From positions 1-22,568 of the IMG/VR virus record IMGVR_UViG_3300035034_004337: a stretch of 22,568 nucleotides of DNA; one strand, given 5' to 3'. Of this stretch, positions 7,622 to 22,406 are shown piece after piece. Made by a program: the position numbers and the translations under genes. Below the pieces are notes generated by a model. That model was not told where the DNA came from, ran no database searches, and saw only the letters and a program-made list of their open reading frames with translations. Each line of letters begins with the position of its first letter. The first letter of the stretch is position 1. The DNA comes from a virus.

Positions 7622-7649
7622 ATTGCGAAGATTTCACACTTTATGAAGG

Positions 7650-7662
7650 TAAAAAAGGACAC
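7650..7662 (-). promoter_or_regulatory. Late-type TGTCCTTTTTTA box, copy 3
   Basis: Minus-strand GTGTCCTTTTTTA, 29 bases upstream of the protease start at 7621 and 17 bases after the stop of the preceding gene, the same arrangement as at 4303. Confidence 0.5.
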
Positions 7663-7678
7663 GAAAAGCTATAAAATA

Positions 7679-8161
7679 CTAGACTTGAGGGTCGTAAATA
7701 GGAGGAGCTTGAATAAAAGCTCCTGTTAATTTTATCACATATCCTGAAGTATTATTTACATTTTTAGGATTGCTAAAATCTGAAAGCAATCTTAAGCCAG
7801 CAAATTTATCTCCAATTATATGTATAGCATCCATATTTTCAACTAGGGCAACAAAATTTACTTTGCTATACTGCTTTAAAAAATCCAAAACTTTCTCTTG
7901 ATTGCTAGGAATAAATAATTCTATATTAACATCTACACTAGAGCCTTTATCATTTTCTTTTTCAGAAAAAGAATAGGTAGCACTATCTTGAGTAAAGTAA
8001 ACTTCAATCCATTCATCTATAATATTGGTATTGATAGTGACATCAGATATCACTTTTGTTTTTCTTAAATTATAAGAGAAGAAATTGTTTACCGCTTTTT
8101 GAGGAAGTAATTTTATGGAAATTAAAGAACCTGGTTGTTCTTGATTCGATTTTTCTAGCAT
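7679..8161 (-). CDS. Hypothetical phage structural protein (160 aa)
   Basis: A soluble, beta-rich protein with segments such as VNIELFIPSNQEKVLDFLKQ and NNTSGYVIKLTGAFIQAPPI. The C-terminus (a Gly-rich strand followed by PPIYDP) resembles small Bacteroidota phage tail or adaptor proteins, but I cannot name a family. It overlaps the upstream gene by 7 bases, so the genes at 8939-7679 are probably translated as one unit. It ends just before the TGTCC box of the protease gene. A role in head-tail connection or tail assembly is plausible from position only. Confidence 0.6.
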   Translation of the reverse strand: MLEKSNQEQPGSLISIKLLPQKAVNNFFSYNLRKTKVISDVTINTNIIDEWIEVYFTQDSATYSFSEKENDKGSSVDVNIELFIPSNQEKVLDFLKQYSKVNFVALVENMDAIHIIGDKFAGLRLLSDFSNPKNVNNTSGYVIKLTGAFIQAPPIYDPQV

Positions 8162-8661
8162 TTAAGTTTATTTTGTTGGTTAAAAGACGGGACATTTTTG
8201 ACTGTAAAAGACTGTTCAAAACGATAAAAATCTTTTTTAAGCGTGTCAAATTCAATATCATCAGGCGTAATATTAAAAACTTGCAGAAAGTATCTAATTA
8301 AATCTGCTTTTTTAGTTTCAGCTACATTATTACAAAAGAACATAGTCGTTCTAAAATGAGATTTGAATAAATTATGTAAAAAGCAATCAATATTTTTAAC
8401 TGTATCTTCGGTAACAATAAACTTGTATCTTCTCTGCCAAAGCACAGAAGGTATACAAACATCTATAGTTTCATTGAAATCTTTATAGCCTTCATTTTCC
8501 TTATATTCATCATAATAGTAAATAGTAGGGTTTTCAAGTTCGTTAAAAATAATTCTACCAAACTGATCCCGAATAGAAATTCTATAGGGGTTAACAGACG
8601 TGTAGAGTTGCATAAACTTCTTCAAATGGGAACGAATAGGTATGGTTACAATTATATCCAT
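8155..8661 (-). CDS. Hypothetical Bacteroidota-phage protein (168 aa)
   Basis: It starts MDIIVTIPIRSHLKKFMQLY, continues with an aromatic-rich middle (PTIYYYDEYK) and ends with an HTH-like segment (DLIRYFLQVFNITPDDIEFD, then TLKKDFYRF). I have the impression that similar proteins are common in Bacteroidota phages and mobile elements, but no function is known to me. It overlaps its downstream neighbour by 7 bases and shares one base with the upstream stop codon (TAATG), indicating tight translational coupling. The C-terminal helices could bind DNA, so a regulator of the late block is possible. Confidence 0.65.
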   Translation of the reverse strand: MDIIVTIPIRSHLKKFMQLYTSVNPYRISIRDQFGRIIFNELENPTIYYYDEYKENEGYKDFNETIDVCIPSVLWQRRYKFIVTEDTVKNIDCFLHNLFKSHFRTTMFFCNNVAETKKADLIRYFLQVFNITPDDIEFDTLKKDFYRFEQSFTVKNVPSFNQQNKLKC

Positions 8662-8939
8662 TAGCTCCCGATATTGGCATAATCAGTTTGAGTAGAAATT
8701 ATTTCTAAATCAAGATCAGAAATAATAGAATCAATTAATGAGTTTGAAGCCGTTTCATTTTCGCTAATATTTATTTGTTTTGCCACATCATTATACGTAT
8801 AAACAAGACTTACGCTATGCTTTTTATTTGTGGTTAATTCATCTTTTATACTTAAAAATTCTGACTTACTCTGTTGAAGTTGAGAAATTTTTTCTCTAAG
8901 CAAATCTGCTTCAAGATGTTTTGCTGTTGTGAATGCCAT
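8661..8939 (-). CDS. Hypothetical coiled-coil protein (92 aa)
   Basis: First gene of the leftward structural block. The N-terminal half is a heptad-type helix (HLEADLLREKISQLQQSKSE), the C-terminal half is acidic and Ser/Asn/Ile-rich. No membrane segment or enzymatic motif. Its start lies just beside the 8940-9254 repeat region, so transcription of the block may be controlled there, although no TAnnTTTG promoter or TGTCC box is visible. It is coupled to the next gene by a one-base overlap. Function unknown. Confidence 0.6.
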   Translation of the reverse strand: MAFTTAKHLEADLLREKISQLQQSKSEFLSIKDELTTNKKHSVSLVYTYNDVAKQINISENETASNSLIDSIISDLDLEIISTQTDYANIGS

Positions 8940-9254
8940 TATATATTTATTAAAGAGTCAATTAATAGTTTATGAAAACATATAGTAAAAGTATAAAAAA
9001 AAGTTTGATTTCACATAAAAAACATCAAAACAAGTGTGCCAACGTGCCAACGTGCCAATGTGCGCCAATGCGTGCCAATGTGTGCCAATGCATATTTTAT
9101 TTATATTAATTTAAAAAATATTAATAATCAATCAATTATATAATCTATTGGCACATTGGTCGCATTGGCACACTTTTTCTAAATTATGAAACAAATAAAA
9201 AAAATAGCAACAAAATCTCACTCGTTGGCACAAGTGAGATTTTGTTGGCACACT
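8940..9254. other. GTGCCAA repeat region; candidate replication origin or operator array
   Basis: A gene-free region. Six direct GTGCCAAY-type units (TGCCAA at 9037, 9045, 9053, 9073 and 9083, plus the variant GCGCCAA at 9062) lie on the left of an AT-only-like stretch (9091-9146). Inverted TTGGCA units follow at 9148, 9165, 9225 and 9245. AAGTGTGCCAA (9032-9042) is exactly mirrored by TTGGCACACTT (9165-9175 and again 9245-9255). Iterons beside an AT-rich unwinding region, close to the replication genes, are typical of a phage or plasmid origin. The same array could be the operator for the structural block starting at 8939. Confidence 0.6.
9195..9247 (-). terminator. Strong intrinsic terminator after the RadC-like gene
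   Basis: A perfect 15-bp inverted repeat (arms 9208-9222 and 9233-9247) has a 10-base loop containing TTGGCA. On the minus strand it is followed by an eight-U run and lies directly downstream of the JAB-protein stop at 9255. The loop carries one of the region's repeat units, so protein binding and termination may interact. Confidence 0.85.
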
Positions 9255-9701
9255 TTATAGCATGCCTTCGTTTTCAAATGAATAATATCCATTTGAGCTT
9301 AAAATAATATGATCAAGCAGCTTAATATCTAGTGTATTTAAACCTACTTTTAGTTTTTTAGTCAAATTAATATCAGCTTGAGAAGGGTTTAAATTACCCG
9401 ATGGATGATTATGAGCAACAATGACACCAGTAGCTAGATTTTCAAGTGCAATTTTAGCAACCATTCTAACATCAACTATTGTACTTTGAATACCGCCTTT
9501 ACTTAGTTCTGAATAGCCAGTCGTATTATTCGCTGTATTTAGTGTCAACATATAGAAGCTTTCAAATACTTCCATATTTTCATTAAATAAAGGTTTTAGA
9601 ACTTCATATGCCTGTCTAGAACTAGCTATCCTAGTCCTATTGTAAACTGTTTTCTCTTTAACCAAGGAAATTTTTTCTAGATTAGATTTATAAGTTTTCA
9701 T
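9255..9701 (-). CDS. RadC-like JAB/MPN domain protein
   Basis: A 148-aa protein made almost entirely of the RadC JAB domain. It shows the complete metal-binding JAMM signature His97-x-His99-x7-Ser107-x2-Asp110 within VAHNHPSGNLNPSQAD, with a likely partner Glu in MEVFESFY (residues 43-50). It lacks the N-terminal helix-hairpin-helix part of chromosomal RadC, as do many mobile-element copies. The family's biochemical role is not settled; such genes are frequent in phages and plasmids, and an anti-restriction or DNA-processing role has been suggested. It heads no operon here: its leader carries the conserved 9705-9745 element with a tiny upstream ORF, and a strong terminator follows. Confidence 0.9.
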   Translation of the reverse strand: MKTYKSNLEKISLVKEKTVYNRTRIASSRQAYEVLKPLFNENMEVFESFYMLTLNTANNTTGYSELSKGGIQSTIVDVRMVAKIALENLATGVIVAHNHPSGNLNPSQADINLTKKLKVGLNTLDIKLLDHIILSSNGYYSFENEGML

Positions 9702-9704
9702 TTC

Positions 9705-9745
9705 AATTTACCCATGCCCTTGGGATTTATTTGGGTATCTAGCGC
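9705..9745 (-). promoter_or_regulatory. Repeated leader element with overlapping mini-ORF, copy 1
   Basis: The 28 bases at 9705-9732 are identical to 10766-10793, and the flanking 13 bases are similar. On the minus strand the leader contains CCCAAGGGCATGGGTAAATT; its ATG opens the mini-ORF Met-Gly-Lys-Leu-Lys-stop, whose TGA overlaps the ATG of the JAB gene (ATGA). An imperfect CCCA...TGGG palindrome is included. It could be a translational-coupling leader or a repeated operator/promoter. Confidence 0.6.
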
Positions 9746-9790
9746 ACCATTAAACAATGGCACTTCACTTGATGGTAAGAGAGAATAAGA

Positions 9791-9852
9791 CAAGGAGGAA
9801 TTGGAATACCGGATAACGCTTTAGCGTTAGAGGATATGCCGAGAAAATCCTT
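9791..9852. repeat. 62-bp structured repeat, copy 2
   Basis: Identical in sequence and orientation to 557-618. Here the terminal inverted repeat extends to CAAGGA/TCCTTG (9791-9796 and 9848-9853). It lies between the gene ending at 9911 and the leader of the JAB gene. A 62-codon minus-strand frame at 9739-9927 spans the element and is not credible as a gene. Confidence 0.85.
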
Positions 9853-9910
9853 GACGTTTCGAGCTGATTCTAATTTTGTGGAGTTGTTAAGGGGGGTAAA
9901 ATTCTGTATT

Positions 9911-10258
9911 TTATAATCTAATATCATAAAATGATACTGCTCCGCTTTGAGATAATAGTATGCTATCAGTTACATATATCAAACAAATGAACCATTCAGA
10001 TTTATCAAATAAATTTTCTACTTTAGTTTCAGATGAATAAGGTGTAAATAAAATGTATTTAGAATCTTTCTCTATGTAATATCCTTGATATACTAAATCA
10101 ACATCAATACAGAAGCTCGTTCTTTTTTTATTTCCTAATTTTCTAATTTTCCAACCAGGTGTTAAAAATAAGTTTTTAAAAGCAATAGGTTCTCTTATTA
10201 TTTCACCTTTAATTGATATCCAATTGATGTTATTTCTTATAATATCTGAAATAATCAT
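9911..10258 (-). CDS. Hypothetical accessory protein (115 aa)
   Basis: A soluble, aromatic-rich, beta-looking protein (segments DVDLVYQGYYIEKDSKYILF and EWFICLIYVTDSILLSQSGA). No catalytic motif, signal peptide or membrane segment. Its ATG overlaps the stop of the gene at 10255 by four bases (ATGA), so they form a translationally coupled pair. It belongs to a cluster of small unrecognised genes between the replication and structural modules, the usual place for host-takeover or anti-defence genes; that is inference. Function unknown. Confidence 0.65.
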   Translation of the reverse strand: MIISDIIRNNINWISIKGEIIREPIAFKNLFLTPGWKIRKLGNKKRTSFCIDVDLVYQGYYIEKDSKYILFTPYSSETKVENLFDKSEWFICLIYVTDSILLSQSGAVSFYDIRL

Positions 10259-10581
10259 TTTACACCTCCTTGATTAATAGCCATATTTTCCCATGCTAAT
10301 GGATCTGATTTTACAAATTCAGCAATGGGATTTTTTTCATTTTGTGTGTACATCATTCTGTAAATTACAATTCTAACCATACCTCTAAGGCACCAATCAG
10401 TATCGCACATATACCAAAAATGCTTATTATTATTACTTTGAAATTCACTCACACAATTTTTCACATATCGTTCTAGCTCGTAAAAGCTTTCAAATTCATT
10501 GATATCAATTGAAGTTATTAATGCAAGTAATATTTGATCACTAACATTTAATTTTTTTATTAAATAATTCTTCTTAAACAT
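10255..10581 (-). CDS. Hypothetical accessory protein (108 aa)
   Basis: A helical protein with conserved-looking aromatic and Cys residues (NKHFWYMCDTDWCLRGMVRI) and an N-terminal helical bundle segment (LNVSDQILLALITSIDINEF). Two Cys around an acidic/aromatic loop (MCDTDWCL) might bind metal, but there is no full zinc-site pattern. It overlaps the upstream gene by 8 bases and the downstream one by 4, so all three of this run are coupled. Function unknown. Confidence 0.65.
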   Translation of the reverse strand: MFKKNYLIKKLNVSDQILLALITSIDINEFESFYELERYVKNCVSEFQSNNNKHFWYMCDTDWCLRGMVRIVIYRMMYTQNEKNPIAEFVKSDPLAWENMAINQGGVK

Positions 10582-10762
10582 AGCTTATTAGTTCACAAGT
10601 AACACCCACATAAAATACCCATTCACATTTAGCTCTATCTGTATAATAAATTCTTTTTTTGCTGGCATCAAGTTCTCCTTTTAATTTTATGCCAGGAGCA
10701 ACTTTGGAACCTTGCTTTACAAAATCTAATACTTCAGTTACTTTAAATTTTACTTTTGACAT
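10574..10762 (-). CDS. Small hypothetical protein (62 aa)
   Basis: A small basic, beta-rich protein (KFKVTEVLDFVKQGSKVAPG, then IKLKGELDASKKRIYY), possibly a single small barrel. It is first in the coupled three-gene run and its start is preceded by the second copy of the repeated leader, where the mini-ORF stop overlaps the ATG (TAATG). This shared leader ties it to the JAB gene in regulation. No family recognised. Confidence 0.6.
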   Translation of the reverse strand: MSKVKFKVTEVLDFVKQGSKVAPGIKLKGELDASKKRIYYTDRAKCEWVFYVGVTCELISYV

Positions 10763-10765
10763 TAT

Positions 10766-10806
10766 AATTTACCCATGCCCTTGGGATTTATTTTGGCATC
10801 TGGCAC
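10766..10806 (-). promoter_or_regulatory. Repeated leader element with overlapping mini-ORF, copy 2
   Basis: Second copy of the leader at 9705-9745. Its mini-ORF reads Met-Gly-Lys-Leu-stop and the stop shares bases with the ATG of the gene at 10762 (TAATG). The conserved 28 bases end right at the coding start in both copies, while upstream sequences differ. Confidence 0.6.
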
Positions 10807-10830
10807 GCCTATTTTAAAAAAGCTCTAGTG

Positions 10831-10903
10831 AAATTTAAAATCATAAAGTCAAGGGCGACCAAAGGGAGTACATTTACCCTTTACTTTTTTGACTTTTAAA
10901 TTT
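10831..10903. terminator. Large imperfect hairpin between small genes
   Basis: Nested inverted repeats: AAATTTAAAA/TTTTAAATTT (10831-10840, 10894-10903), AAAGTCAA/TTGACTTT (10845-10852, 10889-10896) and AAAGGG/CCCTTT (10861-10866, 10877-10882). The structure begins in the stop codon of the gene ending at 10902 and precedes the leader of the next gene. It may act as a terminator or mRNA-stability element; there is no clean U-run, so efficiency is uncertain. Confidence 0.5.
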
Positions 10904-11201
10904 AGACCTTTGCTGTGTTAAATCGAGGTGAGTATGAATAGTACAAAGCATTTGATGTTCTTATCAATAAAAAAACTTTAACCGGGAAGTGTGTAAGTTT
11001 TTCTGCAGCGCTAAAATCCTCTCGGCATGTTAAAGTATAGCCTTCATTATCAATGAAAATAAATTCATCACGAAAATTCTTTTTAGGTAATGCTTGAGGT
11101 ATTCTATCAATCCAATCTTGTTTATTTACAAGGGTTACAATAGGTCTTACTTTAATTTTTACTTCTTCCATAATTGTATATTTAATTTTTACTTCTTCCA
11201 T
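10902..11201 (-). CDS. Small hypothetical protein with duplicated start (99 aa)
   Basis: A 99-aa mixed alpha/beta protein (FRDEFIFIDNEGYTLTCRED) without recognised motifs. A perfect 30-base tandem duplication covers its start, so the N-terminus reads MEEVKIKYTI followed by MEEVKIK again. Translation could begin at 11201 (99 aa) or at 11171 (89 aa), each with an identical upstream region. It sits 18 bases after the primase-helicase stop and so is probably cotranscribed with it. Function unknown; from position it could be a small replication accessory protein. Confidence 0.6.
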   Translation of the reverse strand: MEEVKIKYTIMEEVKIKVRPIVTLVNKQDWIDRIPQALPKKNFRDEFIFIDNEGYTLTCREDFSAAEKLTHFPVKVFLLIRTSNALYYSYSPRFNTAKV

Positions 11202-11220
11202 AATTGTATATTTAATTTTT
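11151..11220. repeat. 30-bp tandem duplication (2.3 copies) over a start codon
   Basis: The 30 bases at 11151-11180 recur without change at 11181-11210, and the first ten bases again at 11211-11220, ending in the primase stop codon. The unit includes TACTTCTTCCATAATTGTAT, that is, a start codon and its upstream region on the minus strand. The length is a multiple of three, so the reading frame is kept. Confidence 0.95.
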
Positions 11221-14200
11221 AATATTCATCAGGTGCTGCAATACATCCTGTTATGTTTTTCAATTTATTTGATAATTTGTCAAAATCAACAACTATGCAA
11301 CTCGTATTTATCACAATATTTTTATCATTCTTAAATCTATAACCTTTACAATTACCTATAAAAGCAGGAATTCCTGCTATGTAATTGTTTAAAGTAGATA
11401 AATTCATTGAAATTAGTCTTTGCCTTGCAGCTGCCTCAGCATAATATCCATGAATAGCAGATGTTCTTAGTAGTAAAAGCTTTTTTATATGACCAAAATT
11501 TAAATCTTCTACTATTTTTCTATTTTTCCTAACCTTGAAACTGGTTTCTTCTATAATTCTAAAGTGTTGTCCCTCTTTGATATCGCCTTTCTCAATCAGT
11601 TGTTCTAAAATAGTCCAATAGCTACCTAGGGAATCGCTTTCTTCAATCAAAGAGCTTAAATTGATTACATCATTGATTAAGTTTAAATTAATAGTAGTTA
11701 AATCTTCTTCAATATTTAACGCCACTTTTTTGCTAAAGAATTTAAGCATGGTTGCCAGCGCGGTGTAATTCCTCAAAATTCTATCTTCAAAATTTTCCTT
11801 CTTTGCCACCAGATGATCTCTAAAATAAAAGTAGGTTTCAGAAAAAAGTTTAGGATATTCTTTTTCAAGTTCTTTCCGATGATTCAGCAGTTCTGGTATC
11901 AATCCAGATAGATTATCTTTTTTTTCAAGCTCTTTCAATTTTTCATAAGCTTCAAGCTGTTCATTAGTCCTTTTAGTGTTGGGCTTAAATTCAATCGTAA
12001 TGCATCGAGATAGCAAAGCGTTATCATCTGCAGTAGATAAATATTGACCATTTAAAATAGGAGACGAGTTAACGTGCATTATTTCTGACCGATCTCTTTT
12101 ACCTCCTCTGCCTCTTTCTCTTCCTGTACCATCAAATGAACCTTTTAAAGCTTGAAATCGCTCAGGCTTCACTACATTGTCATCAAACTCTTCAAAAAGA
12201 ACCACACAATTTCTAAATCTTGAAAGTCTGCTAGCAAAAGCGAAATCAGTACCTTGAGTTAAATTAAACCCTGGCAAGTCACGAAAAAAGAAGGAGGATA
12301 TGGATTCTCCAAGTTTAGATTTTCCACTCCCTTTTTTACCATAACAATACAATAGAGGGCAATTGTTATCAATTTTAAAAACAATATCTCTAAACAAGGC
12401 AACGCATATATAGCTGAAAGCATAAATATATTTATCGGGATATACTTTTTTAACCAGTTCAGCCCATTCTTTGAATGTTGTGTTTGGTCTATCAAATTTC
12501 AAATACCTATCATTTTCAAATTCATCATCATCCTTTCTAAGATTTTGATAAATTTTAGAAACAGATGGAGAAAAATAATTTTTTTCATCCACCATGGCTA
12601 TGCCATATTCATCAATGGGTTCTATCTGTTTGTTAAAAACTGCATTTGAATAAGCAAAAAAGCCTTCGGGCTGTTGTCCTAGTGTTTTCAATTCATAGCA
12701 TAAAGGGAAATTACCCGATATTTTATTGAGGATTTTCATTAAATGAGGTTTTCCGCCATTGAATAAGTAATTACCTTCATCATATACTGCACCAGCAAAT
12801 TGATCTACTTTAATCATTGACTGAGATGGGAGCTCCATGATTTTATATTCAATACCGTTATTTATTTCAATCAATCTTTTATTATCTTTCAAGGAATACA
12901 AGTGAAAAAGCGGTCTAACAATGAAATTGCTTTGGGCAGTGTGTGTGCCATTGCTATTATGAAAATAATAACCGGCTTTCCCTTTACCATATTCTTCATA
13001 GAAACCATGCTTCAACCATTCGTCTCTATCCACATGTTTCGGTAGATAGTTATCATATAAATCATCCTTTGGATGTGAAGATTTTAAAGATTTTTCAGCT
13101 TGTTTTTTAACGAGGTCTTTAAACTGGGTGAGCTTAACTTCGCTTCCTAGTTTTTTACACAATTCTTTTTCGTAATAAGCCTTGGCCACAGGCAAAGGAA
13201 TAGTTGAAACAATGGAAGCTATATTTTCAGTTGCCTCATGCTTATCTGTCGCAGAATCAACCTTTTCTATAAGGTAATTGACGTACCAAAACAAGCAATC
13301 ACCCTTCCCTTTTTCTATATAATCAAGTAATTCTTCAGCATTATACATCCTGCTCAAATCGTCCATATCAGCTCCCTCATGCAAAAGAACACACTGTGTA
13401 TCAAAACCTTTTGCAATGGCTATTTTCATCGCCCTAATAAGGGCTTTTGTTCCTGATTCATCGCCATCAAAAGCAAAACATATTTTATTGGTAAATTTCT
13501 TTAATAAATCTGCTTGTTCTGTAGTGAAAGCAGTACCGCAGCTAGCAACTATATTTTGTATGCCTTTGTCATAAATGGAGATTACATCGTAATAGCCTTC
13601 AGTAACAATGGCATATCCTTTATCTTTAATGGCTTTTTGGGCTAAATGGATTCCAAAAAGATTTTTCTTTTTGTTGTAAATAACATTGTCTGCACTATTC
13701 TTGTATTTAGCATATTTCTCATCGCCCATATTTTGAGCACCAAAACCAACAATAGAGTTTCTATTGTTGGTTATAGGAAAAATAATTCTATTTATAAAAA
13801 TATCATGTTTTGCCCCATTTTCATTTTTCTTAACAAGTCCTGCAGCTTGAGCGTCATCAAAAATGTCTTTATCATTAACTAGTTTAGTTATAAAGCGTAA
13901 ATTTTCAGGAGCAAAACCTATTTGAAAATCATCTATGGTTTCTTTAGAAAGGGCTCTTTTATCAAGCAATTCAGACCATACTTTATGTTTTTCGGGTAAA
14001 TCATTTAGATTTTCTAAATACTTAACTGCAGCTGCTTTAACAATAGAATAAGCTGATGTTTTTTGTTTGCGTTTAATTTTTGCTTTTTCAGCAGCTTTAG
14101 GATCATCGTATTCTTCAAATTCTAAAGTAAAGTTGTAATGTTTGGCCAGAAAATCAACCGCCTCATAAAATTCTAAATTTTTATGTTGCATGATAAAGTT

Positions 14201-14413
14201 TAAAGGACCAACAGCTGCGAATCCACAGCCAAAACATTTAACAAGGTTTTTAGAAGGCGAAATCACAAAAGAAGGAGTCTTTTCATCGTGAACAGGACAA
14301 CAAGCTTTGAATGTTGCCCCGTTTTTTTTAGGTTCGCAATAAAGACTAACTATTTCTAGTAAGTCAGCTTTTTCCAATAAATCATCAATGCTCTGAGGTT
14401 TTATATAAGGCAT
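11219..14413 (-). CDS. DnaG-type primase fused to AAA+ helicase
   Basis: A 1064-aa phage replication protein. The N-terminus is a CHC2 zinc finger (Cys39-x2-His42 and Cys60-x2-Cys63). A DnaG catalytic core follows with toprim motifs: Glu272 in TEGYYD and Asp316/Asp318 in FDGDESG. The C-terminal half is a P-loop ATPase: Walker A GKKGSGKS at 692-699, Walker B VVLFEEFDD at 737-745, a sensor-like SSPILNGQ and Arg-rich GTGRERGRGGKRDR between them. Priming and unwinding are thus combined in one chain, as in other phage primase-helicases, though the ATPase looks closer to SF3/AAA+ than to DnaB. The start overlaps the upstream small gene by 29 bases; the repeat-rich candidate origin at 9.0-9.25 kb is probably its site of action. 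Confidence 0.93.
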   Translation of the reverse strand: MPYIKPQSIDDLLEKADLLEIVSLYCEPKKNGATFKACCPVHDEKTPSFVISPSKNLVKCFGCGFAAVGPLNFIMQHKNLEFYEAVDFLAKHYNFTLEFEEYDDPKAAEKAKIKRKQKTSAYSIVKAAAVKYLENLNDLPEKHKVWSELLDKRALSKETIDDFQIGFAPENLRFITKLVNDKDIFDDAQAAGLVKKNENGAKHDIFINRIIFPITNNRNSIVGFGAQNMGDEKYAKYKNSADNVIYNKKKNLFGIHLAQKAIKDKGYAIVTEGYYDVISIYDKGIQNIVASCGTAFTTEQADLLKKFTNKICFAFDGDESGTKALIRAMKIAIAKGFDTQCVLLHEGADMDDLSRMYNAEELLDYIEKGKGDCLFWYVNYLIEKVDSATDKHEATENIASIVSTIPLPVAKAYYEKELCKKLGSEVKLTQFKDLVKKQAEKSLKSSHPKDDLYDNYLPKHVDRDEWLKHGFYEEYGKGKAGYYFHNSNGTHTAQSNFIVRPLFHLYSLKDNKRLIEINNGIEYKIMELPSQSMIKVDQFAGAVYDEGNYLFNGGKPHLMKILNKISGNFPLCYELKTLGQQPEGFFAYSNAVFNKQIEPIDEYGIAMVDEKNYFSPSVSKIYQNLRKDDDEFENDRYLKFDRPNTTFKEWAELVKKVYPDKYIYAFSYICVALFRDIVFKIDNNCPLLYCYGKKGSGKSKLGESISSFFFRDLPGFNLTQGTDFAFASRLSRFRNCVVLFEEFDDNVVKPERFQALKGSFDGTGRERGRGGKRDRSEIMHVNSSPILNGQYLSTADDNALLSRCITIEFKPNTKRTNEQLEAYEKLKELEKKDNLSGLIPELLNHRKELEKEYPKLFSETYFYFRDHLVAKKENFEDRILRNYTALATMLKFFSKKVALNIEEDLTTINLNLINDVINLSSLIEESDSLGSYWTILEQLIEKGDIKEGQHFRIIEETSFKVRKNRKIVEDLNFGHIKKLLLLRTSAIHGYYAEAAARQRLISMNLSTLNNYIAGIPAFIGNCKGYRFKNDKNIVINTSCIVVDFDKLSNKLKNITGCIAAPDEY

Positions 14414-14675
14414 ATTTCAGTTGGTTAATTTTTTGAACAATTTTATCAGTTGCTTTATTTTTGGGTATGAGATACCAAATTTCATGTCTATAAATTCTTA
14501 TAATTTTAAGAACCTGAATATCATAGGTATAGGGATAGCTATTTAACCAATTTTCTAACTTATCAATAATAGATAAATTTTTAGTTAAGTTAGTTTTAGA
14601 CTTACCTTCTTCAATCAATTTTTTTCTAATTCGAATAACAGATTGCAGCCAATATCTCGGAGTATCGTTAGACAT
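14385..14675 (-). CDS. Small hypothetical early protein (96 aa)
   Basis: A basic, all-helical protein (SVIRIRKKLIEEGKSKTNLT; DKIVQKINQLKYALY) lying two bases after the stop of the Cro-like gene and overlapping the primase start. It is therefore part of the early leftward operon. The basic helices would suit nucleic-acid binding or a replication accessory role, but there is no recognisable motif. Function unknown. Confidence 0.6.
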   Translation of the reverse strand: MSNDTPRYWLQSVIRIRKKLIEEGKSKTNLTKNLSIIDKLENWLNSYPYTYDIQVLKIIRIYRHEIWYLIPKNKATDKIVQKINQLKYALYKTSEH

Positions 14676-14677
14676 AA

Positions 14678-14929
14678 TTAGTCAATAATTGAATGACCAT
14701 CAACTAACTCTTCATAAGTAACTTCAAGGTGGTCAGAAATTTTAACTAATTCAGATACATCCCAATGCGCATGTTTATTGTTCATCAGTCTAGTAATTTT
14801 GTGTCTTTCAATCTTAGTAGATTTACATAGATTATTTACTACTTCATCAATCATTTGTGGATTATGATTAGCTTTTTCGCTTACGACTTTGTAAAGTCTA
14901 GATTTAATTTTCGGGACTACTTTTGGCAT
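14678..14929 (-). CDS. Cro-like HTH (XRE-type) regulator
   Basis: An 83-aa protein dominated by a helix-turn-helix domain of the XRE type: NLCKSTKIERHKITRLMNNK followed by a helix and DHLEVTYEELVDG, the usual last helix of the fold. It is the first gene of the early leftward operon, transcribed away from the rightward HTH gene at 15029, the arrangement of lambda cro and cI. A TATATTTG -7 element (14950-14957 on the complementary strand) with a TTG 21 bases further upstream lies just before it, and a GTAAA/TTTAC operator-like palindrome sits in the shared intergenic region. Confidence 0.78.
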   Translation of the reverse strand: MPKVVPKIKSRLYKVVSEKANHNPQMIDEVVNNLCKSTKIERHKITRLMNNKHAHWDVSELVKISDHLEVTYEELVDGHSIID

Positions 14930-15028
14930 AATTAAGTTTTTAGTTTACACAAATATAAAGTAAAACTTTACAATTATACAAGGTAATTGCATATAAATAA
15001 GGCATTATTTTTGCAACAAACAAATATT
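14930..15028. promoter_or_regulatory. Divergent early/repressor promoter-operator region
   Basis: Two face-to-face Bacteroidota-type promoters are visible. Leftward: TATATTTG (complement of 14950-14957) with TTG at 14979-14981 (complement), spacing 21. Rightward: TATTTTTG at 15006-15013 with TTG at 14987-14989, spacing 16. Between them GTAAAACTTTAC (14960-14971) is a 5-bp-arm inverted repeat, a likely operator for the two HTH proteins. The rightward promoter lies downstream of the ATG at 14987, which is why I start the repressor at 15029; its leader would be very short. Confidence 0.65.
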
Positions 15029-15409
15029 ATGCAACATCAAGGAGAAATTTTAAGTAAGATTTTAGAGGAAAATAAAATCAACAAAGCCCAATTAGCAAGG
15101 GATATAGGTATTACTTCCGCTTATCTATATGAGTTACTAAAGAAATCTGAAGTAAAAAATAAATATTTCTACCACCTACAAAATAAGTATGGTATTCAAG
15201 TTCGGGATTTTTATAAAGACCTTCCATACTTATATGAAGAAGTAGAAAAGTTAAAAAAAGAATTCATAAGTAATGAATTTTTCAAAGAAAAAGTAAACGA
15301 ATTGAATGATTTAAAGGAGAAGTATATTCTTGCAATTGAAAAGAATTCAGCATTGCAAGAAGAACTTGCTGAATGTTATAAAAAAATAAATAGTGAAATA
15401 AACAAATAG
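15029..15409 (+). CDS. Phage repressor-like HTH protein
   Basis: A 126-aa protein starting MQHQGEILSKILEENK. Residues 1-45 form an HTH (NKINKAQLARDIGITSAYLY), followed by a C-terminal coiled coil (EEVEKLKKEFI onwards, rich in Glu/Lys/Leu) for oligomerisation rather than a LexA-type peptidase domain. I therefore expect a CI-like repressor not inactivated by self-cleavage. It is the only rightward gene before the integrase and faces the Cro-like gene across the operator region. The frame is open from 14987, but that start is upstream of the predicted -7 element. Confidence 0.78.
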   Translation: MQHQGEILSKILEENKINKAQLARDIGITSAYLYELLKKSEVKNKYFYHLQNKYGIQVRDFYKDLPYLYEEVEKLKKEFISNEFFKEKVNELNDLKEKYILAIEKNSALQEELAECYKKINSEINK

Positions 15410-15588
15410 CTGACACGCTATTGCCACAATTTATATTGAAAAACTAAAATAAGAACCACGAAAAGCGTGTGTTTAATAAGGTATAATGAAAGGGGATGAA
15501 ATCCCTCTTTCTCCGCCATTAAAACGCAAACGCTTAATTATAAGGTGTTTGCGTTCTTGTTTTGCTTACTGCCACAGTATTGACACAG
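15410..15588. other. Candidate intact phage attachment site (attP)
   Basis: The 18 bases ATCCCTCTTTCTCCGCCA (15501-15518) match the 3' end of a bacterial tRNA-Ser, including the CCA end, with no tRNA 5' part present. Paired repeats of type YTGMCAC flank it: left at 15410 and 15421, right at 15569 and 15580. Within each pair the spacing is 11 bases, and the two pairs are related 20-mers: typical of integrase arm sites around a core. AACGCAAAC/GTTTGCGTT (15523-15531, 15547-15555) plus an inner CTTA/TAAG forms a hairpin that may replace the tRNA terminator after integration. The integrase starts 28 bases further right. Confidence 0.75.
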
Positions 15589-15616
15589 CTTTTAGGTTTT
15601 TGTGCCTTAAAAAAAA

Positions 15617-16771
15617 ATGCAAAAAAATCAAGCAGTTAAAATCCTCGGATATTCAATCCCTACCTACACTAGAGCTAAATCTTCTCGGATTACTTACTAT
15701 GTTCGTAATTTGGTAGATGCAGACAGATTAGTAAGAAAGCAAATAAGATTAGATTATATTAAAGATGTAAAGAGTCGTGATAAGTATGCTCGAGAGATAA
15801 TTAAAGAATTACATGAGAAATTGAAGCGTGGATGGCATCCTGATGGAAAAATTCAAGATTCATATATAACAATCAGTGTAGCATTAGAAAATTATCTTTC
15901 AAAAAAACAAAAAGAATATAAGGATGGCCAACTTAGATACGATAGTATCAGAAGCTTAAAGTCAATGATGGGCATTTTTTTGAAATGGCTTCAAGAAAAC
16001 AAGTACCAGGATCTATTACCAACAAATTTCAATAAAAGACATGCTGCAGAATATATGGATTTCATATATATGGTTAAGGATGTGAGTAGCACCACCTACA
16101 ATAACTACCTGATGTATGCTAGAATGTTCTTTAACGAATTCATTCAGCAGGACTACTGCAGTATTAATCCATTTAAACATATTAAACAAAAAACAGCTCA
16201 AAATAAAAGTGAGCGTGTGCCTCTTACCGTTGAGGAGAGGAATAGATTAAAAGAATATTTTTTAGAAAAAAATCCATGGTATCTGCTTTCAATACTTTTA
16301 ATCTTTCATTGTGGAATTAGGAGAACAGAGCTGACAAAAATCAAAATCGAAGATATTGACATTGAAAATAGAGTAATAATAGTTAAAAATAATGTAGCTA
16401 AAACCAAAAAACAGCGATATGCCTCCATGCCTTCAGAAGTAATTCAATTTATGTTGTTTTTGAAAGTATTTGACTTTGCAGGAAGATATTTCTTAATTGG
16501 CAATGAGTGGCAACCAGGAGACAAAGCAATCACGCCAAAAAGATTAACCAAAACTTGGGCTAGAGCTAGAGAGAAGCTCAAGCTACACCCCAAAGCACAG
16601 CTTTATAGTGTGCGAAAAACAGGAGGCATCCAAAAAGCCGAGGATAAAATAAGTGTTCAAGCGTTAAAAGATTTCTTTGGCCATACAGATTTAAAAACGG
16701 CTTCAAATTACTTAGAGAATCATCGAAATAAAGGAAATGACGAACTTAAAAATAATGTGAGTGATTTTTAA
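15617..16771 (+). CDS. int: Tyrosine recombinase (phage integrase)
   Basis: A 384-aa site-specific recombinase expected to integrate the phage at a tRNA-Ser gene. Residues 1-80 form an arm-binding-like basic domain, about 85-190 the SAM-like core-binding domain, and 200-375 the catalytic domain. Catalytic residues: Arg235 (GIRRTEL), a Lys in AKTKKQR (262-267), Arg333 in LYSVRKTG, His356 in FFGHTD and the nucleophile Tyr365 in SNYLENH. The usual His of the HxxR box is replaced by Tyr330. The start is directly downstream of the attP-like site. Its stop overlaps that of the convergent tape-measure gene by three bases, leaving no room for a terminator between them. Confidence 0.93.
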   Translation: MQKNQAVKILGYSIPTYTRAKSSRITYYVRNLVDADRLVRKQIRLDYIKDVKSRDKYAREIIKELHEKLKRGWHPDGKIQDSYITISVALENYLSKKQKEYKDGQLRYDSIRSLKSMMGIFLKWLQENKYQDLLPTNFNKRHAAEYMDFIYMVKDVSSTTYNNYLMYARMFFNEFIQQDYCSINPFKHIKQKTAQNKSERVPLTVEERNRLKEYFLEKNPWYLLSILLIFHCGIRRTELTKIKIEDIDIENRVIIVKNNVAKTKKQRYASMPSEVIQFMLFLKVFDFAGRYFLIGNEWQPGDKAITPKRLTKTWARAREKLKLHPKAQLYSVRKTGGIQKAEDKISVQALKDFFGHTDLKTASNYLENHRNKGNDELKNNVSDF

Positions 16772-19700
16772 CCCTTAGCAGAATTCTTAATTTTATCCAT
16801 CAAATCATTTTCTTTCGTAAAGTAATCATAATCAAATATGGCAGGGGAGGCAGGCGGATTTTCTAATAACTCATTCATTTTCTTCATGGTTTGCAAAATA
16901 TCTTCATAAGAAAAATCACTATTCGAGTTATCAAATCCAGTAAATGGATTAGGTGTTTTTGTAGATGGATTTGAAAATCCACCACTTTTCATTTGTGTCA
17001 TTGATATACTTTGCATCATCCCTTGAAAGTCAGGTACACTTATTTGGTGCGTTCTATAAGCTTCCAAAGCATCTGCCACTCTAGCAATGTATGGATTCTG
17101 CATCATATCTCCATTGATCCAATACTCAGGCTTATCTTCTCCACCTAAAACAAGGTTTGGACCATGCTTCCCAACATGTCCACCAGATTGATTAGAAAAT
17201 TTGGCATTATAAGTCTTCCCATCATTAGGACCTTTTACCCGAAAACCCCCTGTATAATATTGCTCTGGCACTGTTGGAATTTCTGTTTTCACAATTCCCA
17301 TCACATTGGCCATACCCGTTGCTGCTGCAGCGGCCATTTGTATTTTCGCTATTACAACAGCTGCAGGACCCGCAGCTGGATTAATTGATGCTTCAAAAGC
17401 TCTCTGCATTGCTGAAATCATGGAAATTTTTGCTTCAGCAATTTTAAGCATTTTCCATGCTCCTGATCCTTGGTTAAGCATTCCTGCAGCAGTACCTAAC
17501 AATCCGGCAATTGCTTCTTGAGCTTGAATTTGAAGGTTAATTTCAGTTTCACTTTTCGCTCTTTTTTGCTCAATATCAGCTTTATCAAACTTATCATTGA
17601 CAACCGCTCGTTTCTTCCTGTATTTTGCTTCTAACTGATATTTAAATTCTTCATAAACCCCTAACTGTCTAAGCTTTTCTTCTTCTTTTTCTTCATCTAA
17701 AGCTATTTCAGCTAATGCTTTATCTCTAAGGTCATTAATTTCTTCAAGCCAAAGTTCATTTTTAATTTCCATGTACTTTTCATGAAATTCTTCTGCATGA
17801 GATAGTTTGATTTCATCAATTTCTTCATTTCTAAGATTCAATAATTCTTTATACTGTTCGCTTTCTAAGCCAAATTGAGCTTTAGCAAATTCTAGCTGTT
17901 CACTATATTTATTTTTAACGGCTTCAATTTCTTTGTCTTTATCAGAAAGAGAATTTAAAAAATTATCTTCACGCATTTTTTTTAAAAATTGATAAAAACC
18001 CTCTAAATCTTTTTTTTGTTGTTCAAGAATTTCTTTTTCAGCATCGGTTAAATCCCGGCTAAGTTTCATTTTAGTTTCAACTACTTTTCTCCAATCCTCC
18101 AATCTATCTATGTTATGTTGAACCTCATCTTCTGTAATTCCTTGATTGTCTTTTATAATTTTAGAAATGCCCGTTTTATATAAATCATTAAATGGAGCTG
18201 AATTTTGTAAAAATTTAATTTCTTCTTCTAATATAGATGCGTGTCTTTCACTTGTAGCATTAGATAGTTGTTCTTCAAGTTCCTTAATTTTCTCATTATG
18301 TTTTTCTCTTTCAAGAATAATTCTTTCTTTAGATTTAACTTCTTCAGCAAAAATGGCTGCTTCTTTATTTTTATGCGCCATTATTTCCTGGTCAATATCA
18401 TCCAACAGGATTTTCATTTGTTCTTTAGATAATTTACCTATTGTTTTAACTCTAGTTTCAATAGATTTCGTGGATTGGATTAATCTATTGCCTTCTTCAA
18501 CTGCTTCGTTAAAATCAGCTTGAGCAATGGTAGCTTCTTCCACTTCATCTTTAAACAAAGTATAAGCTGTAGCTGCGGCAGCAAGCAAACCGAGTAATAA
18601 ACCAACAGGACTCAATTTAGTAGTCAAATTGAATATACGCATAGCTTTATCAGCTCTTGAGATATTCATTGCTAAAATCTTTTTTGATTTATAGAGCAAT
18701 ACCGTTGCAATTCTTTGAGCTGTAGTCAACGCAATACCTGCTTTTTGCCTATTATTATAAATAAGTAAAACAGCACTAATCGCTTTTATAGTACCTGCAT
18801 AGGTCAAGTAAACGGCTCCCAGTTTTAATACCACTTTTATGGTATTTATTATTTTTTGAGCATTTTCAGAAAGCCAAAAAACCAATGTTTTAATTTTTTC
18901 TATTAAAGAAATGGGTGCAATTTCTTCGGCAATAGCTTTACCTAGTTTTGCTAAAGTTGCTGCTAAAGTGGCATTTTTCAAATTAAACTCTTCGTTTATA
19001 GAAGTCCCTTTTTCAAATGCTTCATTGGAAATTTCTTGTTGTCTTCTAACTTCGTGAACATTGGTCGATAAAGTTCCTAATACACCTACAACTCTTCCCC
19101 CATCAGCTCCTAAATCTCCAAGCGATGCTGCTAAGGCCTCAATGCCTCCTTCCATATTGCCTACTCCTTCTAACACCAACATCAAAGCTTCAAGTGCATC
19201 CTTTTTCATAAGTTTTGAAAAATCATCAACAGCTACACCTGCTATTTTAGCATATTCAGCTGGGTTTTTTGCCATCGTAATTAAGGTCTTAGAAATAGCA
19301 GTAGATGAAGTTTCTGCAGTTTGCCCCAAAGAATCTAAAGTACCCGCTAAAGCTATATTATCAGCAGCACTTATTTTAGCAATGCCTGATACACCCGACA
19401 TTTTTTTTATAAACTCAACTAAATATCCTTCACTGGCTGTTGAAGCCATACCAATATCATTAATTGCAGAAGCAATTTTGAGCATGCCTTCTTCAATCCC
19501 AAATTCGCTTTCTAGATTAAAGATGTTAACCAATTTACCAATTTCTTGTACGGCATCAGCCCCAAGGTCAGATCCTAATGCAACATTAATTTTATCTGCG
19601 GCTCTAACAAAGCCCATAATATCTTCTTGACCTTGTATTCCAAGTTTTCCTGCCATCCAAGACAGATTAAGCAATTCTTTTCTAGAACTTCTGGTATCTA

Positions 19701-20118
19701 TTTTTTTAAGTTCAGATGCTAATTTTTTAACCTCCTCTGCTGTTAATCCAGTAACTTTTCTTACGTCTGCCAATTGTTCGTCAAGGTCTGCGGATGATTT
19801 TATGAGCTGTTGAAATCCAGTTATTGCACTACCCACACCAAGCGCACCTGCTGCAATCATTCCAAATTGTTTGACCTCTGTTTTCAAAGAACCCCAAATT
19901 CCAGAAGTACCTCTAAGTTTAGCATTGTGATCTTGAATGATTCCATTAGCCCTTTTAAGTTCTTTTACCGCTTGATTATATTTTTTAGTTCCAGGCGTTA
20001 ATTTATTTTCTATTTCGTTGCGCAAACTTCTAGCTTCTTTACGAATTTGGCGCATAGAATTTTCAACCGCTTTACCGTTGATGTAAATATTTATCCGTCT
20101 ATTTTCTGATTTACTCAT
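16768..20118 (-). CDS. Tail tape measure protein (TP901 type)
   Basis: An 1116-aa protein that sets the length of the phage tail and passes through the tube. The N-terminal region is a coiled coil with a basic start, followed by the TP901-family core (about residues 105-390; for example ASADLDEQLADVRKVTGLTA), two to three hydrophobic segments (about 420-540, such as PVGLLLGLLAAAATAYTLF) and long charged coiled coils (about 550-850). Then come Ala/Gly-rich helices and a Gly/Asn-rich tail. At the usual 1.5 Angstrom per residue this gives a tail near 170 nm, a flexible siphovirus scale. It follows the HK97 gp10-like gene and is the last gene of its operon; tail-tip genes, which normally come next, are replaced by the convergent integrase. 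Confidence 0.93.
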   Translation of the reverse strand: MSKSENRRINIYINGKAVENSMRQIRKEARSLRNEIENKLTPGTKKYNQAVKELKRANGIIQDHNAKLRGTSGIWGSLKTEVKQFGMIAAGALGVGSAITGFQQLIKSSADLDEQLADVRKVTGLTAEEVKKLASELKKIDTRSSRKELLNLSWMAGKLGIQGQEDIMGFVRAADKINVALGSDLGADAVQEIGKLVNIFNLESEFGIEEGMLKIASAINDIGMASTASEGYLVEFIKKMSGVSGIAKISAADNIALAGTLDSLGQTAETSSTAISKTLITMAKNPAEYAKIAGVAVDDFSKLMKKDALEALMLVLEGVGNMEGGIEALAASLGDLGADGGRVVGVLGTLSTNVHEVRRQQEISNEAFEKGTSINEEFNLKNATLAATLAKLGKAIAEEIAPISLIEKIKTLVFWLSENAQKIINTIKVVLKLGAVYLTYAGTIKAISAVLLIYNNRQKAGIALTTAQRIATVLLYKSKKILAMNISRADKAMRIFNLTTKLSPVGLLLGLLAAAATAYTLFKDEVEEATIAQADFNEAVEEGNRLIQSTKSIETRVKTIGKLSKEQMKILLDDIDQEIMAHKNKEAAIFAEEVKSKERIILEREKHNEKIKELEEQLSNATSERHASILEEEIKFLQNSAPFNDLYKTGISKIIKDNQGITEDEVQHNIDRLEDWRKVVETKMKLSRDLTDAEKEILEQQKKDLEGFYQFLKKMREDNFLNSLSDKDKEIEAVKNKYSEQLEFAKAQFGLESEQYKELLNLRNEEIDEIKLSHAEEFHEKYMEIKNELWLEEINDLRDKALAEIALDEEKEEEKLRQLGVYEEFKYQLEAKYRKKRAVVNDKFDKADIEQKRAKSETEINLQIQAQEAIAGLLGTAAGMLNQGSGAWKMLKIAEAKISMISAMQRAFEASINPAAGPAAVVIAKIQMAAAAATGMANVMGIVKTEIPTVPEQYYTGGFRVKGPNDGKTYNAKFSNQSGGHVGKHGPNLVLGGEDKPEYWINGDMMQNPYIARVADALEAYRTHQISVPDFQGMMQSISMTQMKSGGFSNPSTKTPNPFTGFDNSNSDFSYEDILQTMKKMNELLENPPASPAIFDYDYFTKENDLMDKIKNSAKG

Positions 20119-20124
20119 AATAAA

Positions 20125-20520
20125 TTATTTAATGCGTACATGCTTCATGGCTTCATCGGCAATGTTTAAATTCAAATCGTTGGCTAGTTCTGGTACAGTT
20201 ACTTCCATTACTGGGTTGAACCAAGGTTTTGGATTTCTTCTTCCTTTTGCAGCTGCTGTAGCTTGTGCAACTCTACCTATAGGATGTCCACGTCCAACGC
20301 CTTTTTCTACAAATACTCCATGTCTCGGAAATTGAAAACCTATTTTCCAAGGAATGCCAAAATCACGGGAAATAGAATATCTAATATATTTTTGGAGGTC
20401 TCCAGAGTGGTTTCTTATTCCCGCTGCAGACACACTGCCTCTTAAAATATTTCTAGTTTTAGCCGACCATCTTTTTACAATTGGGTCTATATTTTCTAAA
20501 GCGCTACCTCTATTACTCAT
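20125..20520 (-). CDS. HK97 gp10-like head-tail/tail completion protein
   Basis: A 131-aa protein with the pattern of the HK97 gp10 family: an N-terminal helix, a middle FGIPWKIGFQFPRHGVFVEK and the Gly/His-rich loop GVGRGHPIGR, then RRNPKPWFNPVMEVTVPELA and a C-terminal helix. The PWFNP segment is common in this family. Such proteins sit at the head-tail interface or tail terminator. It overlaps the holin-like gene by 8 bases and is separated from the tape-measure gene by only 6 bases, so the three are one translation unit. Family call rests on motif resemblance. Confidence 0.68.
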   Translation of the reverse strand: MSNRGSALENIDPIVKRWSAKTRNILRGSVSAAGIRNHSGDLQKYIRYSISRDFGIPWKIGFQFPRHGVFVEKGVGRGHPIGRVAQATAAAKGRRNPKPWFNPVMEVTVPELANDLNLNIADEAMKHVRIK

Positions 20521-21022
20521 TATCTATTTTTGCTTTAGAAAATTCTTTAAAACGCTCCATGATAAGTGGAGGAGGCATTTTACCCTCAGATAAGTGATAA
20601 ATCAGCTTAATGCAATCTAATCCTAAGTATAGAAAAATTAATAGTTGTGTGCTAATCGTAAAAGTATCTTGGAAAAAAGTGCTATTCACACTAATCAAGT
20701 TCATGACATTAAAAACAGCAGTACCTACAATACAAATAGCTGTTTTTTGGATTAATTTCCATATCATTTCAAAGGGGTCAAAAGTTTTAAATCTCCAATG
20801 CTTCCAAATACCTAAAGCTGTATTGGCAAAAAGCAAAATAAAAATAATGATTGTAGTGCTATAATCGGGAAGGGCTATATCGGTTACATCTTTTATAAAT
20901 TGCCAAAAAATGGCAAAAAAAGGAGTCATTATAACTGAAAGCGTTAAGGATAGCAATATTTTTATAAAAAGATTGCCGTGTTCAAATATTTCAAGAATAA
21001 TTCTAAAAAGGGAATGGTGCAT
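20513..21022 (-). CDS. Holin-like membrane protein
   Basis: A 169-aa protein with an N-terminal amphipathic segment, then about four membrane helices (IKILLSLTLSVIMTPFFAIF; TTIIIFILLFANTALGIW; ICIVGTAVFNVMNLI; LLIFLYLGLDCIKLIYHL) and a charged cytoplasmic tail (MPPPLIMERFKEFSKAKIDN). This layout matches phage holins of the larger Bacteroidota/phi29-like type that form pores for the endolysin. No endolysin is seen next to it. It is unusually placed ahead of the gp10-like and tape-measure genes. A TGTCC box and terminator precede it, so it probably opens a late transcript. Confidence 0.72.
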   Translation of the reverse strand: MHHSLFRIILEIFEHGNLFIKILLSLTLSVIMTPFFAIFWQFIKDVTDIALPDYSTTIIIFILLFANTALGIWKHWRFKTFDPFEMIWKLIQKTAICIVGTAVFNVMNLISVNSTFFQDTFTISTQLLIFLYLGLDCIKLIYHLSEGKMPPPLIMERFKEFSKAKIDNE

Positions 21023-21135: not shown

Positions 21136-21537
21136 TTAAGGAATGATTTGAACATCATCACCGTTTACCACCACACAACCCCGCACGGTAATTTCATAGC
21201 AATAATCTTCAAAATCTTCAATTTGTGTTTTTAATTTCTCTCGAGTATCTGTTTCGTATTCTTTTAGATTAAAAAAAACAGGAATAATACTATCACTACC
21301 CGTAGCCCCTGCCAAGGCACCAAGCAATTTTACATCCATACTTTCTATTGGTGCAAAAGCCTGTAAGTGATAGTGGTTTAAACATAAAAGCCAAATTTGA
21401 CATTTATTGTCCACTTTTGCTTTTATAAAATTTGAGATAAAATAATTGATTTGCTCTGCGTTTGTTAGCGGAAGGAGCTCTTCCGTAAAGAAATACTCCA
21501 CTTTGAAGCTTTCTTTAAAGATTTCTTTTTCTTGCAT
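21136..21537 (-). CDS. Hypothetical protein (133 aa)
   Basis: I start at the ATG at 21537 (MQEKEIFKESFKVEYFFTEE); an upstream in-frame ATG at 21585 would add an odd Cys/Ser-rich stretch encoded inside a hairpin. The protein is acidic and soluble, with a central QIWLLCLNHYHLQAFAPIES and an acidic tail. No family recognised. It precedes the tail block on the same strand but is cut off from it by a terminator, so it seems to be a single-gene transcript. A TATATTTG element on the coding strand (complement of 21682-21689) could be its promoter, giving a leader of about 140 bases. Confidence 0.6.
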   Translation of the reverse strand: MQEKEIFKESFKVEYFFTEELLPLTNAEQINYFISNFIKAKVDNKCQIWLLCLNHYHLQAFAPIESMDVKLLGALAGATGSDSIIPVFFNLKEYETDTREKLKTQIEDFEDYCYEITVRGCVVVNGDDVQIIP

Positions 21538-21555
21538 AATACTAAATTTATAATG

Positions 21556-21624
21556 GGAAGGGGTGCTGCAAGAACAAGTGTCCATAAGACATTTGAATAA
21601 GGCTCTAAACCTCTCACCCCTTCC
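21556..21624. promoter_or_regulatory. Long-range hairpin in the leader of the 21136-21537 gene
   Basis: GGAAGGGGTG (21556-21565) and CACCCCTTCC (21615-21624) are a perfect 10-bp inverted repeat with a 49-base loop. On the minus strand this lies immediately before the chosen start codon and could occlude it, so it may regulate translation. No known riboswitch is recognised. Confidence 0.4.
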
Positions 21625-21777
21625 ACGAGTTTATAAAAATTAAAATGTTGTGTGTGTATTAGACACTTATTCTCTCAAGGGCAAATATAGTGCCACAAGT
21701 GTATAGTAAGAGTTGATTAATGTGTAAGTAAATGGTTGATGAATATTTTTTTTATCTTTGGAAAAAAATAAAAATAC

Positions 21778-22155
21778 ATGAAAGCAATTACAATTTATAT
21801 TTTATTAATCATTCCATTTTTAAGTTTTAGCCAAACGGATAGTGTAATTACACACCAAAAAACGGGTAAATCAATTGTATTAAAAGAAAGCAAATTTTAC
21901 GATTATCAAATCCAAAAAAATAAAGCAGCCATAGAATTAGAAATAAGCGCTAGTTTGTTAATTTACTCCCAGGTGGTTTTGTTAATTGGAGGGGCTTTAA
22001 TAGGTGTAGGTTATGCTATTGAGAATGAAAAAATGGCAGTAGGTGGAAGTGTAGTTATAGGTTTTTCAATTCCATTAACAATTGGCTCAGGATTTAAACT
22101 CAAAAGTGCTTCTAAGAAATTGAGAGATGCGTCTTTTTATGAAATCAATAAATAA
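21778..22155 (+). CDS. Hypothetical secreted/membrane protein
   Basis: A 125-aa protein with a signal peptide (MKAITIYILLIIPFLSFS, cleavage likely before QTDS), followed by a charged region and two Gly-rich hydrophobic segments (LLIYSQVVLLIGGALIGVGY and GGSVVIGFSIPLTIGSGF). It resembles many small Bacteroidota envelope proteins rather than a phage structural protein, and it lies on the opposite strand to the neighbouring late genes. A TATCTTTG -7 element at 21753-21760 gives it its own promoter, with a TTG 14 bases upstream. It is probably a lysogenic-conversion or cargo gene; alternatively the window passes into host DNA here. Confidence 0.72.
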   Translation: MKAITIYILLIIPFLSFSQTDSVITHQKTGKSIVLKESKFYDYQIQKNKAAIELEISASLLIYSQVVLLIGGALIGVGYAIENEKMAVGGSVVIGFSIPLTIGSGFKLKSASKKLRDASFYEINK

Positions 22156-22232
22156 TTTTAAAACAAATGCAAGGGCTGCGCCTGTTGCTTTACTTTTTCT
22201 TTTTGATGCGCTTATTTAGACGTTAGCCACAA
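22156..22232. other. Short intergenic hairpin between convergent genes
   Basis: The gap between the rightward gene and the next minus-strand gene holds GCAAGG...CCTGTTGC (22169-22188), a bulged hairpin with a GCTGCG loop, then a T-rich stretch and a terminal ACGTTAGCC (22220-22228). It may be a terminator for either gene. The GTTAGCC box is reminiscent of integron attC right ends, but a matching left box is not found. Confidence 0.3.
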
Positions 22233-22406
22233 TTAAAAATCCAAAAACTCTGTTCTTCTATTGTATTTTAGCATTTTATTTACAGTTTTAATCCTTTTTT
22301 TATTTTCAATTGCAAAGTCATCGCTTTGTTCGCCACCACTTCCACCGCACATAATTATATTTTCTTCTGCCATAGCAAAAAAGGCTTGAAACTCCTTTTC
22401 GCTCAT
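22233..22406 (-). CDS. Small hypothetical protein (57 aa)
   Basis: A short frame starting MSEKEFQAFFAMAEENIIMC and ending YNRRTEFLDF. It contains a Gly-rich stretch (CGGSGG) and a basic helix (KKRIKTVNKMLKYNRR). No known family. It begins 14 bases after the stop of the gene running off the window's right end, so the two are probably cotranscribed. Short length keeps confidence moderate. Confidence 0.5.
   Translation of the reverse strand: MSEKEFQAFFAMAEENIIMCGGSGGEQSDDFAIENKKRIKTVNKMLKYNRRTEFLDF

Follow-up and report, generated by a model that had tools for sequence, protein, structure and literature searches.

A probable uncut attP with a tRNA-Ser(UGA) core and phased arm repeats in a metagenomic Bacteroidota phage

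The stretch of DNA analysed here, a 22,568-nt virus record from a metagenomic virus contig (hereafter the window), very probably contains the uncut attP of a temperate Bacteroidota phage, lying beside the gene of its tyrosine integrase and predicted to recombine with the 3' end of a host tRNA-Ser(UGA) gene. At the level of sequence, four things speak for this assignment: the identity between core and tRNA end, the layout of the site, its conservation, and its reappearance at either end of relatives found in the integrated state. Integrase binding, strand exchange, terminator activity of a hairpin and self-repression are activities that such a site would be expected to display. The order along the window is the end of an HTH gene at 15409, a 20-mer (P), the tRNA-Ser end, the hairpin, a second 20-mer (P') and int, with the following features, in which L002 denotes a related viral contig and the rebuilt attPs are those described below.

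15029..15409, plus strand: HTH regulator gene (Pfam HTH_26), whose stop codon abuts the P arm; the L002 counterpart ends directly before the L002 P arm
15410..15429, plus strand: P arm, two putative integrase arm-type sites 11 bp apart, CTGACACGCTATTGCCACAA; found at the corresponding position in L002 and seven rebuilt attPs
15500..15518, plus strand: attP core, exactly identical to the last 19 nt of tRNA-Ser(UGA) including CCA, AATCCCTCTTTCTCCGCCA
15523..15555, plus strand: terminator-like hairpin with a weak T tail, probable intrinsic terminator; 13-bp stem, -16.3 kcal/mol, z -4.8
15569..15588, plus strand: P' arm, two putative integrase arm-type sites 11 bp apart, CTGCCACAGTATTGACACAG; lag-11 repeat before 21 of 23 related integrases
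15617..16771, plus strand: tyrosine integrase, 384 aa (Pfam PF00589, E 4e-14)

The initial annotation had placed an 18-base core at 15501-15518; the place and the tRNA-Ser identity were right, but the identity spans 19 nt and starts at 15500. To its left the bases at the T-loop position differ from those of the tRNA (GATGA versus GTTCG). When compared with 195 distinct tRNA 3' ends, the window matched over at least 19 nt at the core and over at most 12 nt elsewhere, while 100 shuffled windows gave matches of mostly 12-13 nt and never more than 16 nt. The core match is therefore far above chance, which disposes of the concern, raised beforehand, that it might be of chance length. No tRNA gene was found anywhere in the window, in keeping with the earlier statement that the rest of the tRNA is missing. 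Many Bacteroidota have tRNA-Ser(UGA) genes that contain a 30-mer with the core end, Flavobacterium being foremost among the matches listed; the counts of such genes are lower bounds ("at least"). Since all but a few of the matches listed read GCCA, the CCA is gene-encoded in this tRNA, as it is in the phage; and since this tRNA end is widespread in Bacteroidota, the core does not fix the host species. One tRNA-Ser locus matching over 22 nt, three bases past CCA, was considered as the host and discarded, because about two such matches are expected by chance among 120 loci.

A 22-nt block, TATGAAATCCCTCTTTCTCCGCC, is common to the window and L002 or nearly so, one base to its left differing, between flanks that have diverged. 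On its left side the block reaches beyond what the tRNA also has; conservation of the core thus covers slightly more than the stretch identical to attB. To the left of the bases matching the tRNA lies a T-stem-like inverted repeat (AGGG/CCCT, AGAGG/CCTCT), at 15490-15509 in the window and at about 9855-9875 in L002, whose loop reads ATGAAAT in both phages versus TTCGAAT in the tRNA; it may be part of a core-type Int site. A search of viral contigs for the exact core version common to both phages returned L002 alone, and a search of viral contigs for the core with its right flank returned no match.

The paired YTGMCAC units that the initial annotation had seen, 11 bases apart within two related 20-mers, are present at 15410, 15421, 15569 and 15580, all on the plus strand. 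In the window the exact pattern YTGMCAC-N4-YTGMCAC occurs at 15410-15427 and 15569-15586 only, and CTGACACGCTATTGCCACAA and CTGCCACAGTATTGACACAG are identical at 15 of 20 bases. Taken alone, however, these repeats are of weak significance: the four-unit pattern of the window scores 24/32, a value reached by 19 of 1000 shuffles, and the motif was picked after the sequence had been seen. The comparison with relatives is therefore decisive. Integrase scans of viral contigs gave one relative, L002, an independent 40-kb contig whose integrase is 73% identical to that of the window and whose order (HTH gene, pair, core, hairpin, pair, int) is the same. Its arms are CTATCACAGTGTTGTCACAG and CTATCACAGTTTTGTCACAG. 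The arm word has changed from YTGMCAC to YTRTCAC, so that a literal search for YTGMCAC pairs misses the L002 arms, whereas the 11-bp phase, the direction and the distances have not changed. It had been proposed beforehand that units not conserved alongside a conserved int would tell against an integrase site; read literally, that test would have misfired here, for the word is not kept and the phase is.

The hairpin, which was absent from the initial annotation, lies at the equivalent place in L002 and in all rebuilt attPs; its T tail is weak in the window and clear in L002. From its sequence and position it is probably an intrinsic terminator that would act downstream of the restored tRNA gene and shield int. 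Between the P' arm and int (15589-15616 in the window), many relatives have an inverted repeat and then, immediately preceding the int ATG, some nine consecutive A, which could possibly serve translational control of int.

More distant relatives were sought by sampling about 1,440 Bacteroidota genomes and scoring the best few candidates per genome, which provided 21 integrases at 23-32% identity. Each of these 21 integrases, which come from cellular genomes, is immediately preceded by a tRNA 3' end pointing towards int; this end belongs to a whole gene in 16 cases (Ser, Ala, Leu, Met) and is a tRNA-Met 3' part only in five. With the window and L002 included, a 7-mer repeat at lag 11 (at least 6/7 matches) precedes 21 of 23 integrases; lags other than 11 were found at no more than five loci, and shuffles gave a mean of 2.3 and a maximum of 6. 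For seven elements, of 8.1, 16.7, 19.0, 26.9, 32.6, 39.2 and 42.4 kb, the far end could be located, and it consists of a second copy of the tRNA end with the same phased pair before it. In two others (L181 and L228) the second core copy is present and the left pair was not resolved. Rebuilding attP from both chromosomal ends of the seven elements and adding the window and L002 gives nine attPs to compare. In these the distance from the start of the left pair to the core is 89-109 nt, and the right pair follows the core at 49-59 nt; all nine have a hairpin immediately behind the core. Four-unit scores are 30/32 in L002 and 26-32/32 in the seven rebuilt elements, thus 24-32/32 over the nine, and at most 1 of 1000 shuffles reaches them, the window's score excepted. 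Across relatives, then, the arm pattern is strong as judged by sequence: arm-type sites lie on both sides of the core and recur at both ends of integrated relatives. The P-core-P' layout beside int, as originally proposed for the window, is thus the one that related integrases use. The search of host genomes that had been suggested had a mixed outcome: tRNA-Ser(UGA) genes with the core end are present in many Bacteroidota, but the best few candidates from each of the roughly 1,440 genomes included no integrated copy, either of this phage or of a close relative. A scan of genome contigs for the integrase by peptide patterns confirmed none.

Two further observations concern these elements. Four integrases (L185, L188, L224, L225) are preceded by the last 41 nt of tRNA-Met only, from the anticodon on, without the 5' part, and in L188 the full 41-nt end is repeated about 36 kb away; elements stacked at one tRNA-Met gene would explain these ends. 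Three integrases (L207, G717:C110; L195, G717:C232; L199, G381:C9) are 1-2 kb from a contig end, as expected if integrated and circular forms coexist and break the assembly, although a repeat could do likewise.

The tRNA-Ser(UGA) gene itself is occupied by related elements in nine viral contigs (L009, L012, L014, L020, L024, L025, L028, L031, L033). Their integrases belong to the family of the window's (profile E 1e-46 to 1e-57) and start just after a tRNA-Ser(UGA) gene ending in AATCCCTCTTTCTCCGC, with a hairpin and, in most, also a phased pair in between. Being only distant relatives (Int identity to the window 23-26%), these contigs show that the tRNA end is used and do not reveal the host of this phage.

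The int gene is open and encodes the catalytic residues. The Arg, Lys, His/Arg and Tyr conserved in the catalytic domain of tyrosine recombinases are in place: R235, K262, H356 and Y365 are invariant among the 22 relatives compared, and the HxxR box is Y330-S-V-R333, or Y-S-L-K in most relatives. The predicted N-terminal domain comprises strands 16-18, 24-30 and 38-44 and a helix at 51-70 (model pLDDT 86); in the model it is followed by a helical SAM-like core-binding domain and then by the catalytic domain. The predicted order is the heterobivalent (lambda-type) one, with the arm-binding domain first, and a structure search with the model matched Tn1549 Int and lambda Int, the latter aligning over its full length (363-371 columns). 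The predicted N-terminal domain agrees with the presence of arm sites, to which it would bind. A nucleotide search with the att-int region among isolated phages gave no match.

The site is flanked by phage genes on both sides, in synteny with L002 from about 3119 to 21022. It is therefore uncut, and the sequence represents the unintegrated form, as had been surmised. The initial annotation further regarded the right-end genes as phage cargo. This applies to the genes at 20125-21022, which have counterparts in L002, one of them holin-like (20513-21022), but those at 21136-22406 have no counterpart in the part of L002 compared and are assigned to the phage solely because they are on the same contig. 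The structural genes at 767-8939 and 16768-21022 are distantly related to those of Polaribacter phage Leef_1 (Helgolandviridae), with identities of 31% for the terminase and 29% for the head protease. Alongside these related structural genes, Leef_1 has tyrosine recombinases of its own. A 1064-aa protein encoded at 11219-14413 is a DnaG-type primase in its N-terminal half, with zinc ribbon, DNAG_N and Toprim domains; the C-terminal half has its matches in other families of phage primases.

A plausible course of integration can be read from this layout. The N-terminal domain of Int would contact the two phased arm pairs, and the core-binding and catalytic domains would engage the core. Recombination would then take place between the core and its identical counterpart at the 3' end of the host's tRNA-Ser(UGA) gene. 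The 5' part of the host tRNA would thereby come to lie before the core, the phage giving the last 19 nt, from T-loop to CCA. One junction would then consist of the host tRNA 5' part, core, hairpin, P' and int, and the other of the HTH gene, P, core and host flank, the phage hairpin taking the place of the tRNA gene's own terminator. Because the phage would provide both the tRNA end and a terminator, the tRNA gene would stay whole and terminated, with no read-through into int; and because the P' pair lies between terminator and int, bound Int may repress int.

Three other explanations deserve consideration. The repeats could serve the adjacent HTH regulator as operators, or be -35 promoter elements, the att site being the core only. 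The P pair does come directly after the HTH gene, and two units are -35-like (CTGACA-16-TATATT and TTGCCA-18-TAAAAT). Against this, each of seven integrated relatives has one and the same word at both ends, across 8-42 kb and always at a set distance from the tRNA-end copy, and the words vary among elements and are mostly unlike a -35 box (CGCCACA, GGGCCA, GGGTTA), while the 11-bp phase is constant. Sigma-70-like promoter matches at the arms were dismissed as the cause of the repeats for the same reason, the words changing among relatives and the phase staying. I consider operators or promoter elements very unlikely.

Even less probable is an origin of the attP in assembly or at a prophage-prophage junction, on a chimaeric contig or one from tandem prophages. 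The contig is metagenomic, no terminal repeats were found in its 22,568 nt, and several relatives are stacked at tRNA-Met sites; yet the layout is just as uncut in the independent contig L002, where homologous genes flank it on either side. The least credible of the three sees in the core a tRNA remnant, decayed or there by chance, in a phage that integrates elsewhere or no longer can. In its favour, the best few candidates per sampled genome included no integrated copy of this phage, and the bases left of the core differ from the tRNA T-loop. The exact 19-nt match, against at most 16 nt in shuffles, speaks otherwise, as do the retention of the TATGAAATCCCTCTTTCTCCGCC block in L002 (one base left of it excepted) despite diverged flanks, the location of related integrases at exactly this tRNA end, and an open int with its catalytic residues. 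An uncut attP accounts best for these features.

A metagenomic phage is thereby recognised as probably temperate and caught unintegrated, with an exact chromosomal target predicted for it. The layout recurs with fixed spacing in distant Bacteroidota integrases that target tRNAs for Ser, Ala, Leu and Met. It can therefore guide the search for attP, prophage ends and hosts where isolates are lacking, and also the choice of integrases for Bacteroidota genetic tools. A more tentative idea, possible rather than probable, is that a large family of Bacteroidota phage and island integrases has a single att grammar (11-bp phased pairs, set distances, a tRNA 3' end, an int-side terminator) whose arm words drift with the integrase, making attP, attB and specificity readable from metagenomic contigs.

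The layout as such is already known: paired arm sites and a terminator are found in cluster K mycobacteriophages. Its uniformity across Bacteroidota integrases may be new, as judged from the open-licence literature. In cluster K (CrimD, Pixie), a core from a tmRNA or tRNA gene is surrounded by pairs of arm repeats of about 11 bp, with a stem-loop terminator separating it from the int-side pair (PMC3203893). The window resembles these phages in its two arm pairs, in a core that is the 3' part of a tRNA or tmRNA 5' of int, in the terminator before the int-side pair and in arm words that differ between close integrases. In CrimD, however, the two pairs are mutually inverted and the target is tmRNA, whereas in the window all units have the same direction and an 11-bp phase and the target is a Bacteroidota tRNA-Ser(UGA). 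Within the Flavobacteriaceae, Riemerella phage RAP44 and its 50K island likewise have a 19-bp att, TCCCTCTCTCTCCGCAAAA, at a tRNA end with the integrase adjoining, and the region of RAP44 runs repeat, core, hairpin, repeat, int, with repeated words GCACAAA. RAP44 differs in its integrase (about 25% identical), its core sequence and its int-side words, about 10 bp apart. In experiments, integrase together with attP integrated at this tRNA site (PMC9745183). The att-int region of Shigella phage Henu10 (OQ791282.1) matches that of Riemerella phages at 98% identity along all 701 nt of the query, which makes the stated host of this record questionable. With phage lambda the window shares a three-domain tyrosine integrase and arm sites on both sides of the core; lambda targets no tRNA gene, whereas the window has a tRNA core and two pairs of two sites. 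Finally, in KplE1 of E. coli the int promoter region overlaps with attL, which lies at a tRNA gene, and the integrase IntS represses its own gene, a behaviour predicted for most tRNA-linked integrases (PMC2951348). Self-repression was shown for KplE1 IntS, while in the window it is the position of the P' pair that suggests it.
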